36,114 bases of DNA from an uncultured Clostridia bacterium (GCA_947631585.1 CANRLY010000002.1:1-36114), one strand, 5' to 3'. Numbered from the stretch's first letter, positions 691 through 12,050 are shown. A program made the numbers and translations. The notes: generated by a model from the letters alone, not told the origin.

Positions 691-987
691 GTGAGGCGAA
701 TGTTGCAAACAGCCTAGTAATGAAATTGCATTTCCCTATGCCTTTTGAGAGTACAGGGTTGTTTGTTTGTCAATAGGAATTGTTTGGATTATAACTCCAC
801 ACATATAAACCCGCCACTTGTTCCCATGCTTGCATTACATCTAAATAAGATCCCTATCATAATTCTGCTCTTAATTACAACAATTGGCAATAATATATAT
901 TTATATATTAATACTGACAATATATTGTCGAATTATATCTAATAGAAAAAATAATTGCCATATACTGTCTGACTTTAATAATATGGG

Positions 988-1016
988 TTGAAATTCTATG
1001 AAAAATATGATATAAT
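988..1016 (+). promoter_or_regulatory. Candidate sigma-A promoter for the 1285-8815 operon: TTGAAA - 17 nt - TATAAT
   Basis: TTGAAA at 988-993, 17-nt spacer, TATAAT at 1011-1016; implies a 5' UTR of about 260 nt. Confidence 0.5.
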
Positions 1017-1284
1017 AAAAATAAGTGCAGATAATTTGACATAAAGAAGAAGAAATTCTCATTTGTTTTATATATTTAGAATATAATCACTTATATGGTA
1101 AAATATATGAAAAATGATTTTATGTCATTTATTTAAATGACCCAAATACTCTGAATAGATATAACAAACAGATGTTCAATTACTAATAAATATAAGTGGT
1201 AAAGTAGAAAAATATCGTGCGGCTTTAGTAAAAGCACATATGATTTGTGGTAATTTTTGAATATAACTGTAACAAGGAGAAAGC

Positions 1285-4200
1285 ATGATTTACATTCATA
1301 TCAAAGATAAAGACTTTTCTATATGGTCTGAATTTGAAGAATGGGTCAAATTCTGTTCTGATGATTGTATTGAATTTAACGTTCGAATTGACAGTAGTTC
1401 TAATTTTGATGAACTTCGAGGTCTTCGCAACGCAGCGGATCTTATCGCAGAGGCAAACAAAAGATTTATAATGCAAATTCAAATCGGCGGAAATAAATCT
1501 GTGGAAAATATTAATAGAATTTATAAAGCTATTGGTGATTTTGGCATTATTTATGCCGATCCTATACATAAAACGATTTATTTCTGTTCTGATACTTCTT
1601 TTTTAGCTCAAGAAGAGAACACTATGGATCAGTCTGTTGTTGAAAAAGTTAAAGAATCGCTTGTTAATCACGGCATAAGCGATTCGTCGGCATTGAAAAT
1701 ATGCAGATTTCTTAGAACTGCAAAAATGCGCACAATAAACGATGACAACAACGACGTGCATGCGCTTCAAAAGCGAGAGTTTTGCTTTATTCCCATAAAA
1801 GAAAATCAGTCCGACGAAATTGAGCGGGACCTTAAATATCCGGACATAATCTTTAATTATATTAACAATATAAATTTTGCATTGCTATCAATCAGTCGTT
1901 CTGTTCATTATGATATTTCATACAAAGTATTTGTTGACATTGAAAAAACTGTTATAAGCGTTTCAAAAAATACACGAACCGGTTGGCAAAATGCATTCGA
2001 ACTATATAAACACAAAAATGACTTTTTGAGAAATTTTTATACTGAATTTAAATTTAATGTTGAACTTCAACGTGATGATTTCAGCGATAAAACCGACGTT
2101 ACCAATCTTAGATTCTTTTATCCGTTAAATAAGCTAGACGAAAGATGCGTTATGAACGTTATCACTGACGACTTGGCTGATTTAAATAGAGCATATCAGT
2201 TTTGCACAAAATGCCCAAATGCCGTTTTAATAAATAATAGTCAACACAGTAAGCAAAGTGCCGTGTCAGATATTTTTCCGATAATAAAAATAGATAACAG
2301 TAACAACATTATGCACCCTATTGATGAATCAGATGCTTTAAAAGAGCAGATCAGCGACTATGAATCATATTTTACAATAGGGCATTCTAAAGATACTGAA
2401 TCGATTATAAGAATGAAGAACGAGGCGTATAATATACTTATTAAGTATAAAAATAGTATGCCTGCGCTGACATATCTAATGCTTATTTATCTTCTTCGCT
2501 TTTATATCGGAACTGAGAAAAGCGATACCATAAGCGAAAGCACCCTCGTTAAAATAATTACCGATGCCGAGTCGTACTCCGAAGGATTTTATCAGATAAT
2601 TGAGAACTCCTGCCTTCATTCTCATGGCCATTGCGCTTACTTTTCAATGAGGATCCATAAGGCAAATCGCAACGCAACTATGTCAGTTTTTGAAAAAGAG
2701 CAAAAAACCAGGCAAATGCTGTATGATAAATACTCCGAAAAGCGAAAGGTCAACAATATATTTAATAGTCTTAAGTACAATTATTATATTGAATTTTTCG
2801 TTATAGACTGTGCTGTGAGCGGCAACAATGAAATTGATGGGATTCTTGATACGTTCAACAGGGTTAACGAACAAAAGGTCGCAAGTATAGAAGATCTTAT
2901 TACGCTTACCGAAGAAATGTCTTTCGACAAAGAGAAATATTACACCGAGCATTACGGACTTAGATGGTTTGAAAAGATAATTGATAAGAATCATGGGATC
3001 ATTCACATTTTTTCACCGTTTAAAAGTGGAAAGGAAACGTCGTTATATGTAAGTAGTAATGGAAAAATCGAAGAAAATTCATATCGTAGCGGTAGCATAT
3101 ATTTTACCGAATACAACGTCGTTGTTCCAATGTTATATGCTTTCGAGGGTCAAGATGCAAAAGCGAAGCCAACAAAATGCAAAATAAAGATGTTAGACAG
3201 GCCGGATATTGAATTTAAACCATTAGCGCCGAAAGCGGTTACTAAGATTGACGGTTTATATAATCTCGAAAAAAAGTCAGATAAAATAGAGTGCATTCAT
3301 AATGAATTAAAAGGGTTATTGAAAGAGAGCAACAGCATATTGCAGATTGACTGCACTGATATGCCGTTCGACATGGTTGAGATTACTGCAAAGGCCATTT
3401 TTAAGTCGATATACGAAAAAAGAAAAGTCAAAAAAAATATGCCGATATATATTTCCATAGATTTTGGAGCATATAAAGAGCGGATTTCAGAATTTGTAAG
3501 AATATTTTCTATATTTTATGATAAATCCGGCGACAATGGTTATATGAATAATGTTCAGATAGCACTCTGCGGCAATGATGAAATATATAAAATTAAAAAG
3601 GTCTACTTCATAATTGCCGGCAAGAATCTTAGGTCAGCATATGAGACTGCATTAAAGCTGTTCTATTATGATTCATACTATATGGCGGAAAATATGTATG
3701 TTTTAGACTATCTCGCAGACGGCAAAAATGGCAATAAATCAAAAGTGAAAAGCAAAATCGATGAGGAACTGCAAATTTTGCCTTTTGATATTTACTTGCC
3801 GCAAAACCGTAACAGTTGGTTCTTAAAGCATATGTCCGCTATACTCAATACAAAGATCGAGGAAGCGAATAACGGCTGCAAGATAGAGAACACTCATGTC
3901 AGAATCAGTTCAAGGATCCATCTTGAGGATTTTTACGAAGCAGAGCATCTTTTCCACAATGAAGGAAATGTATACCGGTTTGCAATGTTAATTTCAAAGG
4001 AAATTATTTCCTCACATCAAGAAAATAAAAATATGCTCATCGTAGGATATGAAAACTATTCTTCAATACTGATAAATCTTATACAAAGTCTTGTACAAAA
4101 CGTTTATAAAAGCAATAAAATGCGAGTAAACGTTTGCTCGGCGATCTCAACAACTAACGAATCAGGCATAAATGACATTGTAACAATGAATATGCCAAAA

Positions 4201-6495
4201 TTAGACGATAATGATAAGTTGTATGTATATACCGTAATACCCATTGGCACCACTATGTCGACGATTTATAAAATTCACAATATCGTAAGAAATAAATTTG
4301 AAAATAATTTTATTGTGGAATTCAAGAATAACTATTCAATCATTGCGGTAAGCGACTATCTTGCGAATCCATATTCCGCCAATACTGACAATATGCTTCT
4401 TCGCAGATACTGGGACATAGACAGGATGACTAAGGACAGCTATGAAATAATTCTGCAAAAGGAAATTTCTGATGAATGTGATGCGGATAGCAGGGACACA
4501 AAGGTTAAATATTATCTTGCCGCATACTCTAAATGGCACGATCCAGAAAACTGTGTTCTGTGTAAGAACGCCATTCCACTCATACAGGTTGATAAGACCT
4601 CGACCATACCCTCTACAATTATTATATCAGAAAAGAACAACGAAAGGCACTCTGAACAATTTAACCTGCTAAAGGCTTCTCAGAGTAAGCTTTCAGAACT
4701 TGCTCCAGAATTTAAGTCTTATGGCAAGAACATAATTTATGTTAATTATTCTCATACTGTTCGTGGCGAAAATCATTATCAGTTTTATTTTGACTTTCAA
4801 AAACTCCTGTCGGAAAAGCGCAAATTCATAGAAGATTGGCTTAAACAAATAACGATTGACAATACTGCGTACAGCATATTGGTTTCACCGTTAAACGCTA
4901 CTAACCCAATGTTTTTAAGCCTTCTGATGAACAAGGTATTCTCGTCGGGCGTAAGATTTCTTCACGCAGATATCAACAGCACACTAAAAGAGAACATAAA
5001 GGTAAGATATAGCTATATAGCGGAAGAAATTAAAGAGCTAAAAAAAGTAAATCCAAAGGCGAAGATAAACGTATATTACGCTGACGACTCCATGGTTTCT
5101 GGAAGAACAGCCGAAAGAGGCAAGATGTTTGTGAAGATGCTGCTTGACGATGCCAAAATAAGCATGGACGGAGTATCACTATATAAGAAAATATTCCTGT
5201 TGATAAACCGCAATTCATATGAAACAATGAGTTCTTTAACAGAAAACCCTTTAGAAAACGTTCATTCATATATCTGGCTCAGTCTACCGTCATATAACAC
5301 AAACAATGGCATCTGTCCTAGCTGTGAGGTTCAAAATCAGTTTGAATTGCTAAAAAAACGTTCGGCGACAGTTAGAACAGCAAGAGAATTTGCACGGCTT
5401 CAGCGTAAGCACGAAAAACGTACACCGGAGGAATATGAGGTTTGGCTTGAGAATGAAATTCTCAATACTCATGCATACTTTGCGTGGCTTAAACTTTGGT
5501 TGTTCTATAACGCAGAGTCTTTTGATAATAAGAATAAAACAGATTTTAAGTCATTATGTGATAGAATAGTCAACTTCGTAAAAACCGATGTCGAGAAGAA
5601 GATCCAAGCCAAAAACAAATACCAGGATTTTAATTTCTTTAAACTTTTTGAAAGCAAGGGATTAAATGACGAAATAAAGGACGAATATCTGAATGCGTTG
5701 TCCAAACATTCTCTCAATGACTTTTTGGAATATTGCGGCGATGACAGCTTAAAAGAAAAACTAGTCGGGCTGATGCGATATATCGTCGCCGAGCGAGCTC
5801 ATCTTCGTTTGACCACTATGAACGAGGCATATCTTAAACTTCATAATGTTCGCTCTGAACACAACCGTGAAGATAACCCCTATATTTGCAACCTTCTGAC
5901 TGATTTTCTCAAAATAGGTAGAAATGATAATTCCGATCCGCAGATTTACCTGCGCTTTGAAACAACGGAATCCGCCATTAAGGTTATTTCGCGCGACCTG
6001 CTTGGCAAATACTTCCATGTCAGAAGCGAGATACTTGATGAAATGAAAAATATCGTCATGATTCTTGCAGGAGATATGCATCCTGAGAATGGCTTTGATT
6101 TTCTGCACAGCAGCATCGACGATAAGAGCGTCAGCCAAAAGTTTAAGAACCCTTGCGCAGCGCTTCAATACCAGTTGTTCATGGCAGTCATTCATAGAAT
6201 GGCGATGTTACGAACAAATATCATTTACATAGAAGAATTTATGGATAAGTTTGTATGCGCTTATAACCGTCTCAGGGATAAATACTTTTTCTGCAAAGAA
6301 TACTCCGATGTCCAAAATGCTCTGAGTAAAAAAGAAAAAACCGATCTGCTCTGTCTTACAGAAATTCCAAGTTCTGATAAAGTGGCAGAAAAATATATGT
6401 GCTCCGTCAAAGCGGCATCTATGCTGACCGACGATGACAGCGCTTGCTTTGCTTTGCTTAAAAGTTACAAAAAAGAGGTGAGCAGTGATGAATAA
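1285..6495 (+). CDS. Large multidomain protein: GHKL/HATPase-like ATPase region plus two tandem phosphoribosyltransferase-like modules
   Basis: RBS AAGGAG at 1274-1279 and ATG at 1285. N-box-like QIIENSCLHSHGHC (about nt 2590), D-x-x-x-S-G-like VIDCAVSGNN (about 2797), YGLRWFEKIIDKNHGIIHIFS (G2-box-like, about 2950). PRTase loop-like YVYTVIPIGTTMST (about 4228) and INVYYADDSMVSGRTAERGK (about 5065), each followed by CVLC or CPSC. Confidence 0.8.
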   Translation: MIYIHIKDKDFSIWSEFEEWVKFCSDDCIEFNVRIDSSSNFDELRGLRNAADLIAEANKRFIMQIQIGGNKSVENINRIYKAIGDFGIIYADPIHKTIYFCSDTSFLAQEENTMDQSVVEKVKESLVNHGISDSSALKICRFLRTAKMRTINDDNNDVHALQKREFCFIPIKENQSDEIERDLKYPDIIFNYINNINFALLSISRSVHYDISYKVFVDIEKTVISVSKNTRTGWQNAFELYKHKNDFLRNFYTEFKFNVELQRDDFSDKTDVTNLRFFYPLNKLDERCVMNVITDDLADLNRAYQFCTKCPNAVLINNSQHSKQSAVSDIFPIIKIDNSNNIMHPIDESDALKEQISDYESYFTIGHSKDTESIIRMKNEAYNILIKYKNSMPALTYLMLIYLLRFYIGTEKSDTISESTLVKIITDAESYSEGFYQIIENSCLHSHGHCAYFSMRIHKANRNATMSVFEKEQKTRQMLYDKYSEKRKVNNIFNSLKYNYYIEFFVIDCAVSGNNEIDGILDTFNRVNEQKVASIEDLITLTEEMSFDKEKYYTEHYGLRWFEKIIDKNHGIIHIFSPFKSGKETSLYVSSNGKIEENSYRSGSIYFTEYNVVVPMLYAFEGQDAKAKPTKCKIKMLDRPDIEFKPLAPKAVTKIDGLYNLEKKSDKIECIHNELKGLLKESNSILQIDCTDMPFDMVEITAKAIFKSIYEKRKVKKNMPIYISIDFGAYKERISEFVRIFSIFYDKSGDNGYMNNVQIALCGNDEIYKIKKVYFIIAGKNLRSAYETALKLFYYDSYYMAENMYVLDYLADGKNGNKSKVKSKIDEELQILPFDIYLPQNRNSWFLKHMSAILNTKIEEANNGCKIENTHVRISSRIHLEDFYEAEHLFHNEGNVYRFAMLISKEIISSHQENKNMLIVGYENYSSILINLIQSLVQNVYKSNKMRVNVCSAISTTNESGINDIVTMNMPKLDDNDKLYVYTVIPIGTTMSTIYKIHNIVRNKFENNFIVEFKNNYSIIAVSDYLANPYSANTDNMLLRRYWDIDRMTKDSYEIILQKEISDECDADSRDTKVKYYLAAYSKWHDPENCVLCKNAIPLIQVDKTSTIPSTIIISEKNNERHSEQFNLLKASQSKLSELAPEFKSYGKNIIYVNYSHTVRGENHYQFYFDFQKLLSEKRKFIEDWLKQITIDNTAYSILVSPLNATNPMFLSLLMNKVFSSGVRFLHADINSTLKENIKVRYSYIAEEIKELKKVNPKAKINVYYADDSMVSGRTAERGKMFVKMLLDDAKISMDGVSLYKKIFLLINRNSYETMSSLTENPLENVHSYIWLSLPSYNTNNGICPSCEVQNQFELLKKRSATVRTAREFARLQRKHEKRTPEEYEVWLENEILNTHAYFAWLKLWLFYNAESFDNKNKTDFKSLCDRIVNFVKTDVEKKIQAKNKYQDFNFFKLFESKGLNDEIKDEYLNALSKHSLNDFLEYCGDDSLKEKLVGLMRYIVAERAHLRLTTMNEAYLKLHNVRSEHNREDNPYICNLLTDFLKIGRNDNSDPQIYLRFETTESAIKVISRDLLGKYFHVRSEILDEMKNIVMILAGDMHPENGFDFLHSSIDDKSVSQKFKNPCAALQYQLFMAVIHRMAMLRTNIIYIEEFMDKFVCAYNRLRDKYFFCKEYSDVQNALSKKEKTDLLCLTEIPSSDKVAEKYMCSVKAASMLTDDDSACFALLKSYKKEVSSDE

Positions 6496-8815
6496 TGATT
6501 CTACATTTGAAAAATTGAAACATCTGAAAACGCTTGAAAACACCCGCATGATATATGATCTTATGACCGAAATCAATCTGCGAGTTGACGGCTATAATTC
6601 GTACAACGGCAGCGGGGGTCTTAAAGCTCGCATTGATAGCCGTGACAGTCTCAAACAAAAAATAGATGAATTGGTCAAAGGCGCTTTAAATGGCGAGGAT
6701 GTTTTATACCAAAACGCTCTTAGTGGGCATCTCAGATTCTGGAAGCAATATTACAATTCAGAAAAATATACTTCGATGTCGAATGATATCGCAAATTCAT
6801 ATGCGGTTTTTAAGGCGGCGGATACGATAGCTGAAAATATGTCAGAGGACGATTTGCCGTATTTATACGAAGACCTATGCATAAGTGCAGCAGAGATGAT
6901 GAATTGTGAAATGTGCTATATTCTCTACGGAAGCGATGAAGATGAAATTCAAATCGTCTCAAGATCCGGTTATCTTATCCACGAAGGAAGAATAATGCAG
7001 GATCCGTCTTTTTTGGATATACTTAAGCTGTCGCAAAACGAGGCAATCATAAACGGAATTAATTTAGTTTACGGTAAAGATATAAATCCCCAATCGGAAA
7101 GTTCTATTGATAAGACCTACGATTATCTTATTTACGAATTCCCATTTCATATAGACGGAAAGTCTAAAAACGGCGTGCTGAACTTAAAAAAATTTTTTAT
7201 GGTGTTCTGCAAAATAAACAAAGACAATCCGCTATCCGGCAAAACTTCAGAAGATATTATATTTGAAAGCTCAAAAAAGATACTATTTTTAAGGCACAAG
7301 ATAATGTCGATTTTGGAACGGGACTATGGTGTTTTGCTGAACTTCAGGTACGACTGTCATTATATAAAGAGAATATACGATAAAAAAACAGACAGTCTTA
7401 GAATTCTTCACATTTCCGATATTCATGCTGAAGATAACAGCGCTTGGGCAATAAACTCGAACACATTCAAGAAAACCGATAACATGTTGGATAATCTTTT
7501 CAACATTATGAAAAATAAAGGAGATAATGAAAATGTATTAGCATTTGAACTAAATAAAGATGATAACCGCCGCAGTATAGAACTAATGGTCATAACTGGC
7601 GATGTAATTCAAGCCGATAAATCGGCATACATTGCTCAAAGAAAATATAATCATACTGCCGAATATATTGGACATCTCGTTATTAAGCTCTGGGGAGAAG
7701 ATCACCACAGCAATATAAAAAGGCTTCCCCACGACTGGAAGCGCAGAGTTATTATTACAACTGGCAATCACGATTATATGACAATGAACGAACTGGTATC
7801 TCAAACTAAAGAACGCCAGACAAGATATGGCGAGCCAAGCAGTACCAGCGGTGGTACAATGACAAAATTTACATATTATGTAGAGTTCTTGCAGAAATTT
7901 ATTGATGCACCAATAGACAGGCTTTTGAGAGACGATTTGAATGAAGTTAGATACTATAAAAATTTTGGCTTTAAGACAATTGTTGTCAATACTGCCTCTG
8001 CGGCAAACGCTCTTCAGAACAACAAAGTAGGCGCCAACACCGATATCGTCAGGCATCTTCTTGAAAGTTCTATATGGAAAGATAGTGAAGGAATTATCAG
8101 AGCCTGTCTTTTGCATCACGGTCCCGGATGCAAAATCGGATATATTGATGATATTTACAGAGAGCGTAAGTTGTTTCCAAAAACAGGCACAGATCATGAG
8201 TCTCCCGATAACGATTTTCGTGAAAAATTTAAGGTACTGTACAGCAACTTTAAAGTCATCTCAAATGAGATATATAAAAATAGCGGCAAATTAGACAAAA
8301 TAGATATTTACGATAAATTTCTGAATGCCTATAACCATCTTTCCGATTATATCAACGAACAAATGTCAAGTTCATTCGAGGAAGAGCAAAATGAAGAAAT
8401 CAAAGAAATAAAAAAAGCGTGGATAAATCTGTATTACGAAAGTAATATATATCCCATAATGAGAGATTTGTTCGATTATCTGAGCAAAATCAAAAATGGT
8501 CAAATAGAACATGATGACAGAGACGAATTCATCTCTCAAAGTATAAGCAAAATTACCAATAATGTTCTTATGAGCCAGCTAGATCAGAATAAGCACAACA
8601 AATTGATTGATCTGATTATAAAACAAACTCCTGGTCGAAAGGTCGCATTTTTGTCGGGTCATGTTCATGTCTCAAATGATATAAAAAATATAACTGAGTC
8701 TGATGACTATCTTAACTTGGTTGTAGGTAAAGCTTTGGATCGTATATCTGTGATAGAGCTTAACAACAGCACAGATATGTGGAACAGGTGGACAGCGCAA
8801 TATTCTGATGGATAA
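6488..8815 (+). CDS. Calcineurin-like metallophosphoesterase with GAF-like N-terminal region
   Basis: Motifs LRILHISDIHAED, MVITGDVIQ, IITTGNHDY, LLHHGPG, FLSGHVHV. N-terminal LYEDLCISAAEMMNCEMCYILYGSDEDEIQIVSRSGYLIHEG resembles GAF. Start ATG 6488 (track gives GTG 6485); overlaps upstream stop by 8 nt with GAGGTG SD. Confidence 0.85.
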   Translation: MNNDSTFEKLKHLKTLENTRMIYDLMTEINLRVDGYNSYNGSGGLKARIDSRDSLKQKIDELVKGALNGEDVLYQNALSGHLRFWKQYYNSEKYTSMSNDIANSYAVFKAADTIAENMSEDDLPYLYEDLCISAAEMMNCEMCYILYGSDEDEIQIVSRSGYLIHEGRIMQDPSFLDILKLSQNEAIINGINLVYGKDINPQSESSIDKTYDYLIYEFPFHIDGKSKNGVLNLKKFFMVFCKINKDNPLSGKTSEDIIFESSKKILFLRHKIMSILERDYGVLLNFRYDCHYIKRIYDKKTDSLRILHISDIHAEDNSAWAINSNTFKKTDNMLDNLFNIMKNKGDNENVLAFELNKDDNRRSIELMVITGDVIQADKSAYIAQRKYNHTAEYIGHLVIKLWGEDHHSNIKRLPHDWKRRVIITTGNHDYMTMNELVSQTKERQTRYGEPSSTSGGTMTKFTYYVEFLQKFIDAPIDRLLRDDLNEVRYYKNFGFKTIVVNTASAANALQNNKVGANTDIVRHLLESSIWKDSEGIIRACLLHHGPGCKIGYIDDIYRERKLFPKTGTDHESPDNDFREKFKVLYSNFKVISNEIYKNSGKLDKIDIYDKFLNAYNHLSDYINEQMSSSFEEEQNEEIKEIKKAWINLYYESNIYPIMRDLFDYLSKIKNGQIEHDDRDEFISQSISKITNNVLMSQLDQNKHNKLIDLIIKQTPGRKVAFLSGHVHVSNDIKNITESDDYLNLVVGKALDRISVIELNNSTDMWNRWTAQYSDG

Positions 8816-9092
8816 ATGTCTTTTGATGGAAATAGTATAGACTTCTTCCATAATGCATTTATTTAATAGAAATAGTCAGAAAATGGTCTTTCAATATAGA
8901 AGTCAAAAACCAAACTTTAAATGTCACTGTTAAAATTTTGCATCCTAGTTTGAAAAGATATTTTCATGCAAGTAATTCCGTTTCAGTATGGGTTAAAATA
9001 TGTACCAACAATGTAATAGAACGTTTGAACTGCGATACGTGTGGAAGCATTTTTTGCTAATGAAACTGAAATTAATGCTCCGGCTGTACTAT

Positions 9093-9560
9093 TGCTTACG
9101 AATTTCACCGGCATGGATAATGTTGTTCAGAAGATAATAGACAATCATGTTAATTATTAAAAAGCCTGATAATGCTGCATTTGCGGCTAGGCTGTAGCTT
9201 ATGGTCTTGCCGTCGGGAACTATCGCTATCACCAAAACGCTGATGAGTGGTACAGCGATAAGGCAAAGATAGTTTTTGAAGTCTGCTTTTGCAGGCTTTT
9301 TTGACGGTCACGACTGCTATCAGCACGAGAGTAAATTTTATCAGCTTAGACAACATAGCGGTGTAAAGATACATATCTCCCTCGCTGCTCCAGCCGCCGA
9401 GGCTGTGTGTGAGGATTATTATGATATTTGCCGCAACCTCAGATTATAGAAAAATGAGATATGAGACTGTCGAAAACAGCCATATTACCCACTTTGTTTC
9501 AAACAATATTACGTCCTCATTGTGAAGGATAATTTCGCTGTCTTTTTGTATGATAACTGC
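9093..9560 (-). pseudogene. Remnant of an AgrC-like GHKL sensor kinase (membrane region only, frameshifted; kinase domain missing)
   Basis: Minus-strand frames spliced by eye: FETKWVIWLFSTVSYLIFL*SEVAANIIIILTHSLGGWSSEGDMYLYTAMLSKLIKFTLVLIAVVT / KKPAKADFKNYLCLIAVPLISVLVIAIVPDGKTISYSLAANAALSGFLIINMIVYYLLNNIIHAGEIRKQ*. Confidence 0.6.
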
Positions 9561-9576
9561 GAGGTTTGTTGCAGGT

Positions 9577-9962
9577 CTAAAGATAACTAATTAATTTATT
9601 AAGTTTGCTTTCAAATAGCTCATACGCAAAAGACTTCTTCAGGTACTGATACGCCTGCACATCGTAGCTGTTCTGCATATACAGTGTAGGACGATATGAA
9701 AAAATAAGGGCGTTCCGGTCGGAAATCTCGCACATACGCTTCGCTGTTTCAACGTTGCTAAAACCCGGCATTTTGACATCTGTAAATAAAACGTCAAACG
9801 TTGAGACTGAGTCGTATGTTGCGGAGCAGTTCCTCCCCCGCCGAGCTAAACCGCTTCACCCCCAAACTCTACGGAGTTTGTGATCGAAAATGCGCCCGGA
9901 TAGTTTTCTATAGTTTTCATCTCTGCGAGCGAATCGTCGCAGGTAACGATATTTAAAAGCAT
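9577..9962 (-). pseudogene. Remnant of a LytTR/AgrA-type response regulator receiver domain, frameshifted and truncated
   Basis: Minus strand: MLLNIVTCDDSLAEMKTIENYPGAFSITNSVEFGG ... (frame break) ... TFDVLFTDVKMPGFSNVETAKRMCEISDRNALIFSYRPTLYMQNSYDVQAYQYLKKSFAYELFESKLNKLISYL*. Confidence 0.75.
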
Positions 9963-10067
9963 GAAAAAACCTTTGCGTGCAATAGGGATATTATATCACA
10001 ACTGCAAAGGAGGAACAATGGGTGCGGCAACCATTCAGGGACGTAAATCGGCTAGTGGTGGATTCGT

Positions 10068-10247
10068 TTAGCGATTATATTTAGAAAAATAAATAAGCGT
10101 TTTTTCGCATATTTCCTCGGGGTTTTTCCCGAGATCAATAATTGCCATCAGATCATCTTTTACATTATTGGGGTAGACCGGGCTGCTTTTTACGATATTT
10201 TTTAGAAACTCTTTAAATGCATGTTCTTGAATCTTTTCGTTATTCAT
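10068..10247 (-). CDS. Small 59-aa protein (not in the supplied ORF track)
   Basis: Decoded by hand: MNNEKIQEHAFKEFLKNIVKSSPVYPNNVKDDLMAIIDLGKNPEEICEKTLIYFSKYNR*. SD TTAAGGAGAA immediately upstream of ATG; 79 nt downstream of the DUF2971-like gene, same strand. Confidence 0.6.
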   Translation of the reverse strand: MNNEKIQEHAFKEFLKNIVKSSPVYPNNVKDDLMAIIDLGKNPEEICEKTLIYFSKYNR

Positions 10248-10326
10248 ATATTCTCCTTAAAATAATTTTAATAATTGTAATCAAACACCAAATGTATTTG
10301 TTGATTGTTATTTTTCAAAGAACTTT

Positions 10327-11148
10327 TTACTCTTTGCAGACGAAAGGACCATTTTTGCACATACTGCAAAGAGACTTGAAATTTAATAGATTTTCAAATC
10401 CACTTGAGGTGATTCGTCTCTCATTGTAAAGTTTATCATACAGATCGTTTTTATGATATTTAAATGATGGACCGGTAGTAACTTTAATTTCTTTCAACAC
10501 AGTTTTGGGTATATCGATCAATATCTTTTCTACTCCCATGCTATGTTGGGGCTTTGCAATAAATCGCACTTCATTTTCATATTGCCATGCTGAATTTTTA
10601 ATAAAACCCGTCATACGAGAATTAGTATCCAAATCTATCAAACCAGAATCTTCTGAAACTTGTACGATCAAATCCCGGTGCTTCAATTTTATTGAATAGC
10701 TTTTAGTAATTACCTCAGCATAAATAATGTCGCTTAATACCAATTCTATTGGTATTGCTGCACCAACTTTTCCATTTTCCCATATGTATGCGTTGTCTGT
10801 TTCGTTGACCCAATTCAACATAGCTTTTTGTGGAATTGCTATTCTTACAGCGTTCTCCCAAGGCATACCATACAAGCCCCACATAGCCATGTTTTCAGAA
10901 TCTCCAAACGAAAAGCTTCCAATATAAGTTTTATTCCATTCTTTCCAAGAGCCTTTCATTTTAGACTCATGTTGATCATTAATTTGCAACGAATTGCCAC
11001 GAGTCATCAGAAAAGATGCTCTGTTATATATTTTTTCAAAGCTATCCCAAGTAGTATAATGGTAATAAACCTTGTGATTTTTTCCAGAATCGGCAAGAAA
11101 TTTCAAAATTTCATCAATACTATTTGGTTTTTTCTGTTGTCTATTCAT
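10327..11148 (-). CDS. DUF2971-like protein
   Basis: YYHYTTWDSFEKIYNRASFLMTRGNSLQINDQHESKMKG...YIGSFSFGDSENMAMWGLYG...AVRIAIPQKAM...YENEVRFIAKP pattern typical of DUF2971. Confidence 0.7.
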   Translation of the reverse strand: MNRQQKKPNSIDEILKFLADSGKNHKVYYHYTTWDSFEKIYNRASFLMTRGNSLQINDQHESKMKGSWKEWNKTYIGSFSFGDSENMAMWGLYGMPWENAVRIAIPQKAMLNWVNETDNAYIWENGKVGAAIPIELVLSDIIYAEVITKSYSIKLKHRDLIVQVSEDSGLIDLDTNSRMTGFIKNSAWQYENEVRFIAKPQHSMGVEKILIDIPKTVLKEIKVTTGPSFKYHKNDLYDKLYNERRITSSGFENLLNFKSLCSMCKNGPFVCKE

Positions 11149-11803
11149 ATTACAGCCTCACATTCTTTTTTACATATGGCGTTTTTCACGAATTCTATGC
11201 CACGTTGGAAATTAATGAATTGCTATATAAATAGCACTAGGTTAATTCTTTATATACCGAAAAGTTGTTATTTCACTGTTTTTATTTTATCAAGATAAGT
11301 TAAAACATTGACAATCTTTAATAAAGTATACATAATATAACATTAATAATTTCTTTTTCTTTATATTAGTATATCTTTTTGTATAATTAATTTTCATAAT
11401 TTGTCAATAAAGCAAATAATTTAATTGTATGCAATTACCGATTCATTATTAAATATAATTGATAACTGATAATTAAGGATTTAAAAGCAACCTCAACACA
11501 GCAGCTCAAATAGGAGCAAGATTTTTCCACAAAATCAATTTTGTATTGCAACTTAATTTTGGCTGTGTTGAAATCATATTTGAAGTGACTTTTTGAACTT
11601 TTGTATAAAAATCGCTAATATATTAATCCAATTGATGATTTTCTCATTAAAATATCGCTTCATGCCGTAATAAAAATACGCCAACACCAATGAGAAGCCG
11701 TGAGCCTTTATGGTCAAACAGGCTGCATACTGCGAGTACCATTTACATGGCGGATATGCCCGACGCAGGGCAACAACCCGACTTGCCGTTTTTATTGCAG
11801 CAG

Positions 11804-11980
11804 TGCGGCTATTACCGCAAAGTTTGAAAATTCTAACAAAATCTCCTGAATTCTTGATGTTTCTAACCTTGTGTTGTCGCAGATCTCGTCCAGCGTCGCT
11901 GTCTTTTCACGGTGTTTTGATGGTTGCAAAGGTGCTTTTATTCGTAAAAAGTCTGATAAATTTACTTATTATCTCTTCGC
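11804..11980 (-). pseudogene. Decayed coding fragment with winged-helix-like sequence, possibly the C-terminus of a DprA-type protein
   Basis: Minus-strand frame without a start codon: VNLSDFLRIKAPLQPSKHREKTATLDEICDNTRLETSRIQEILLEFSNFAVIAALLQ*; 'LDEICDNTGLE..RI.E.LLE.E..GVIAAL' logic. Coordinates approximate. Confidence 0.35.
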
Positions 11981-12050
11981 TTATGTTAGGGCAATCGTCG
12001 CCATGGCGGGCTATCTTTCCTCTAGTCGGGGTTAGGTCTACTGCCGCTTG

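Follow-up and report, generated by a model that had tools for sequence, protein, structure and literature searches.

A GHKL-like, tandem phosphoribosyltransferase-fold protein overlapping a GAF-like metallophosphoesterase gene: a candidate regulated-effector system in an AT-rich island

The stretch of DNA analysed here, called the window, is 36,114 nucleotides long and is itself a whole contig. The genome to which it belongs is 82% complete, at 1.79 Mb over 215 contigs, so that the sequence to the left of the window is absent. Two open reading frames on the forward strand, ORF A (1285-6495, 1736 aa) and ORF B (6488-8815), are both intact, without interruption. ORF A starts at the ATG at 1285, preceded by AAGGAG. 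For ORF B, the ATG at 6488, behind AAGAGGTGAG, is preferable as a start to the GTG at 6485, and the two frames share 8 nt (ATGAATAA, 6488-6495) that contain the TAA of A. The translational coupling proposed in the original prediction, made from the sequence alone, is supported. A sigma-70-like promoter (TTGAAA-N17-TATAAT with an extended TG, 988-1016, forward strand), also part of that prediction, is present 270 nt upstream of ORF A; it is a consensus match only, at 11 of 12 positions, and the best among 11 sites of the region, where shuffling expects 6.5.

The G+C content of A and B is 35.6-36.0%. They are part of an 11-kb island (720-12050) with values between 26 and 38%, about 36% overall, within a 50-53% G+C genome, and from 12051 on the window itself is at 50-53%. 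The AT-rich region had been described as lying beside repeats, and the repeats at 1-700 are real: a G+C-rich cluster adjoining the island holds direct repeats of 61 nt and 168 nt, and also palindrome-like CCCCCTCCCCAGTTTGGGGAGGGGG. No Rfam match was found anywhere in the window. A short reverse-strand ORF at 9577-9771 resembles, by eye, the final portion of a receiver domain from a response regulator and is probably a gene remnant. Further right, at 10327-11148 on the reverse strand, lies a DUF2971-like gene (PF11185 slightly below cut-off; PADLOC PDC-S31, E 1.3e-4). A role for it as a third component was weighed and set aside, since it is on the opposite strand and 1.5 kb away. Compared with the DUF2971 proteins of the type I relatives described below, it was 19% identical to the reference protein and gave no blastp match at 1e-4. 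Beside A and B no recognised defence system was seen in the window, this PDC-S31-like gene on the other strand being the only match.

ORF A is predicted to encode a variable N-terminus, a GHKL-like ATPase, an alpha/beta linker, two domains of phosphoribosyltransferase (PRTase) fold and a helical C-terminus. The N-terminal part (aa 1-240, 1285-2004), a candidate sensor, is only 2-6% identical to six type II homologues in the alignment. The GHKL-like domain was placed by motifs at aa 390-625. Its N-box (QxxENxxxHS; here QIIENSCLHS, aa 437-446, 2593-2622) has an Asn invariant in 20 of 20 aligned members, and it is followed by a G2-like box, HYGL (aa 556-559, 2950-2961), and a GT-like box with a terminal Pro, FTEYNVVVP (aa 607-615, 3103-3129). 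The predicted order of strands and helices in this region agrees with the GHKL (Bergerat) fold. The linker (about aa 641-832, 3205-3780) has no assigned family. PRTase 1 has a phosphate-loop-like motif, PIGTTMST (aa 986-993, 4240-4263), without an acidic pair. PRTase 2 has a canonical PRPP loop, YYADDSMVSGRT (aa 1264-1275, 5074-5109), recognised by motif and fold, in which two acidic residues precede [ST]GxT. Two CxxC motifs, at aa 1090-1093 (4552-4563) and aa 1344-1347 (5314-5325), may form a metal site, judging from the sequence. The pair is present in most core members; the second motif is invariant in 22 aligned members and the first is absent from L029, L033 and L039.

No convincing family was found for A in Pfam (whole protein and pieces), PADLOC or NCBIfam (whole protein), where the sole match (E 0.014) is at chance level. 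Likewise, no Pfam family covered the core among 22 family members. An AlphaFold2 model of aa 391-1400, built with 22 sequences (mean pLDDT 73.4, pTM 0.75), was compared with the PDB by Foldseek. The best 50 matches were PRTases or PRTase-fold proteins at probability 1.00, HP1257 and TT1027, two unnamed structures, apart; orotate PRTase (OPRT), hypoxanthine PRTase (HPRT) and PyrR were in the lead. In this model the tandem region is of the type I PRTase fold, and the PRTase modules of the original prediction hold. Topoisomerase II/GyrB, Hsp90 and RIIA are GHKL proteins, and they appeared as weak matches to the model among viral models, after PRTases and PRPP synthetases, with the aligned regions not given. 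The GHKL part itself matched neither a Pfam HATPase family (22 members) nor a PDB profile, and nothing of use came from searching PDB profiles with this part, with the core as a whole or with DUF2971. The predicted GHKL ATPase thus stands on conserved motifs, secondary-structure order and these weak matches, but is without HMM confirmation; that A contains such a domain is inferred from motifs.

ORF B combines a GAF-like domain with a calcineurin-like metallophosphoesterase (MPE). In the numbering from the GTG at 6485, the GAF-like domain, taken from the structure model, spans about aa 100-290 (6782-7354) and the MPE about aa 305-730 (7397-8674). The MPE matches PF00149 (Metallophos) with E 3.2e-6 and 28.2 bits against a gathering score of 21.5, and has five motif blocks: DxH (312-314), GD (372-373), GNHD (427-430), H544 and GHxH (725-728). 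By profile and motifs B is a member of the calcineurin-like phosphoesterase family, which bears out the phosphoesterase first proposed. GAF domains lead the PDB fold matches of B at probability 0.99, but the E-value is only 8e-3, confidence in the model is low, with a mean pLDDT of 59.6, and Pfam gave no GAF match in B.

A profile of three homologues retrieved 21 loci in GTDB genomes, including the G203 and An44 contigs. Of 394 further genomes searched, all from the order, 4 matched, the window's own included, and these added L039. The 22 relatives belong to Bacillota, Spirochaetota and Bacteroidota; their spread is patchy, with about 1% of related genomes carrying such a locus, and they fall mainly into two architectures. 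In type I (15 loci), the core is followed by a receiver-like gene and then by a DUF2971 gene in 15 of 15 cases; the core is one ORF or is divided into two or three, the receiver-like gene has a conserved IDD plus a later Asp, and the loci come from Bacillota and Spirochaetota, apart from one on a contig that bears the label Bacteroides. Only in L004, L013, L014 and L015 does the type I core show a clear second GHKL domain, at its C-terminus. In type II (the window and six others), the core goes with a GAF-MPE in 7 of 7 loci, as a separate adjacent MPE ORF in the window, L029 and L039, and fused into a single ORF of 2300-2540 aa in L028, L030, L031 and L032. L033 (Bacteroidota) has a core and a receiver only, and this partner matches PF00072 weakly. 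The proposed pairing of A and B therefore stands, with homologues co-occurring in every type II locus and fused in four. It needs amendment in that the window is one of two architectures, the other having receiver-like and DUF2971 genes instead.

Several neighbouring genes were recorded. In L031 (4566-5480) and L032 (5931-6860), the gene immediately upstream of the fused giant of type II is of the DUF6615 family; it overlaps the giant by 4 nt in L031 and matches PF20320 in L032, and is possibly an extra component in these two loci. Endonuclease/exonuclease/phosphatase-family genes adjoin type II in L029 (5546-6313) and L039 (2296-3228), only that of L039 being above the Pfam cut-off. Downstream of the type I system in L024 (14662-19535), radical-SAM-like, NUDIX-like, thymidylate-synthase-like and dCMP-deaminase-like genes were seen by eye, a set resembling a nucleotide-modification cluster. 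An FRG-domain gene (PF08867, E 3e-13) lies upstream of the type I system in L027 (3359-4870).

In an unrooted maximum-likelihood tree of the PRTase region, in which L033 and L004 form long branches, type II is one clade (support 100/100) and the type label switches once. All five MPE motif blocks are retained in the seven type II homologues. All 15 type I cores have the acidic pair of PRTase 2, whereas among the seven type II cores just the window and L029 retain it; the difference has a Fisher p of 8e-4, a value that ignores relatedness, as the rows are not independent. This pattern bears on whether the PRTases make a PRPP-derived molecule, as was initially suggested. The PRTase pair could produce a nucleotide signal that is bound by the GAF-like domain and degraded by the MPE as an off-switch. 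The canonical DD of PRTase 2 in the window, the binding of small ligands by GAF folds and the proposal that the two Ter-system PRTases synthesise a nucleotide (PMC5512222) all agree with such a second messenger. Against it, five of the seven type II proteins have lost the acidic pair, PRTase 1 is without one, and type II lacks a conserved separate effector gene. We regard second-messenger synthesis as unlikely, and as less probable than first suggested for type II in particular, where the acids are mostly lost and the MPE site is invariant.

The same observations point to the MPE as the effector and to the PRTase pair as a ligand-binding or structural part rather than an enzyme. Moreover, the partner is exchanged on a constant core, as would be expected of an output module. 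We therefore favour, tentatively and at a little short of even chances, a reading in which A and B act together as a single regulated-effector system that was acquired horizontally, with A as sensor and switch, the MPE as output, and probably an anti-invader role. The variable N-terminus of A would recognise a trigger, which its poor conservation fits. The GHKL domain would bind ATP and change conformation, the PRTase pair serving chiefly as a nucleotide- or PRPP-binding module, and the state of A would be handed on to B. There, the GAF-like domain may keep the MPE off until triggering; the output would then be cleavage, by the released MPE, of a phosphodiester in a nucleotide or nucleic acid. 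Most likely this would protect against phages or other invaders; the infected cell itself would probably be harmed or arrested.

A narrower version of the output is that the MPE is a nuclease of SbcD/Mre11 type, which cuts invading or host DNA once released by A. By profile, the only solved relatives are indeed SbcD/Mre11 nucleases (E 0.003, about 55 residues), and the endonuclease/exonuclease/phosphatase genes beside L029 and L039 would suit it. However, the match spans the first two motifs only, and no SbcC/Rad50-like partner was seen by eye among the listed ORFs of type II loci, which makes this specific activity quite improbable. A regulated MPE acting on some phosphodiester remains the preferred output.

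With respect to mobility, B is missing from three other genomes of the genus; in the empty-site comparison, the related contig ends within the neighbouring gene. Plasmids were searched with A, B and two cores of type I, and phages with A and one such core, and IMG/VR was scanned three times; at the sensitivity used, none of these gave a homologue. From the 36% G+C island, the absence of B and the patchy distribution, the A-B pair looks like a rare, horizontally acquired one of mobile character.

Some relatives lie near defence genes. The L013 core has the BREX genes brxA, brxB and brxC on one side and, by eye, a SIR2-like gene on the other, L022 is near AbiEi/AbiEii, L017 near a TIR gene, and L014 near PDC-S01 and HipA. 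A PADLOC scan of 146 neighbours returned BREX, AbiE, PDC-S35 (TIR) and PDC-S01. The same scan of 144 proteins from ordinary control windows returned type I R-M and Cas genes (Cas6). Since control windows also hold defence genes, the claim of enrichment in defence islands was dropped. This outcome of the scans is in keeping with a two-component-like signalling or stress-regulation device carried on mobile DNA and unconnected with phages, as are the association of GHKL with a receiver-like partner in type I and the existence of comparable receiver/HK-like gene pairs (PMC8011034). Such a device sits poorly with the rarity and patchiness of the family, and neither a DNA-binding output domain nor a histidine phosphotransfer domain was found; we hold it to be rather unlikely. 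Phage or invader defence, for which the mobile, rare and patchy character of the family and the need for metallophosphatases in DS-8 and DS-9 (PMC13092281) also speak, is a plausible suggestion and in our view the likeliest use of A-B.

Taken over both architectures, it is conceivable, if doubtful, that a GHKL plus tandem PRTase-fold nucleotide sensor is a common switch for either a receiver with DUF2971 or a GAF-controlled phosphoesterase, that PRPP or a nucleotide signals infection, and that this is a new immune or stress class. If so, one large core for which Pfam, NCBIfam and PADLOC have no model would define a system family with two exchangeable outputs, and PRTase-fold domains, common in conflict systems with an unclear purpose, would be tied to ATP-driven switching. 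DUF2971 would likewise gain a defined setting, in 15 linked genes, in which its function could be tested.

As to named systems, PADLOC-DB 2.0.0 had no profile match for A or B, and a single one of the 22 core members, neither L026 nor L033, gave one weak PADLOC 'Effector Endonuclease' match (E 2.9e-5). The system was first put forward as one without a name, and this still holds, A being without a Pfam, NCBIfam or PADLOC family. Absence of the folds, homologues not co-occurring and identity with a described system were each examined, and none went against the original prediction. A literature search, mostly outside subscription journals and preprints, found the ATPase-PRTase-phosphoesterase combination not described. 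HATPase and REC domains are named in a DefensePredictor figure of untested predicted systems, with which overlap is possible (PMC13092281).

Four groups of described systems come close. HEF_HK (PF19191) and Response_reg_2 (PF19192) form two-component-like pairs linked to restriction-modification and paraMORC ATPases (PMC8011034). Like them, the type I relatives link a divergent GHKL ATPase gene to a receiver-like gene in mobile or defence-like settings; unlike them, the core here has two PRTase-fold domains and the type of the window has an MPE and no receiver gene. Neither PF19191 nor PF19192 matched in 22 cores or the three receiver-like proteins scanned. In DS-8 and DS-9, a metallophosphatase is required for phage defence (PMC13092281), and here too such an enzyme is linked with an ATP-binding protein or a partner gene. 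However, a NACHT NTPase takes part in DS-8 and a HAD phosphatase in DS-9, and GHKL, PRTase or GAF domains are described for neither (PMC13092281); Pfam NACHT and HAD families had no match in A, B or 22 cores. The GTPase-centred GAP1-N1 and related conflict systems use calcineurin-superfamily effectors (PMC7159879), so that there, too, an MPE can be exchanged as effector while the regulatory core stays constant; their cores are based on a GTPase or MoxR-vWA, whereas the present one is GHKL-PRTase. Finally, the PRTase pairs of Ter, which has two, and the polyvalent PRTases of phages place PRTase-fold domains in conflict settings (PMC5512222). Here, unlike in Ter, these domains are fused to a GHKL core, and none of the family proteins scanned matches a Pfam PRTase or Ter family. 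As far as the sources searched go, the present core and its pairing are undescribed, and a regulated effector on a signalling core is a known kind of system.
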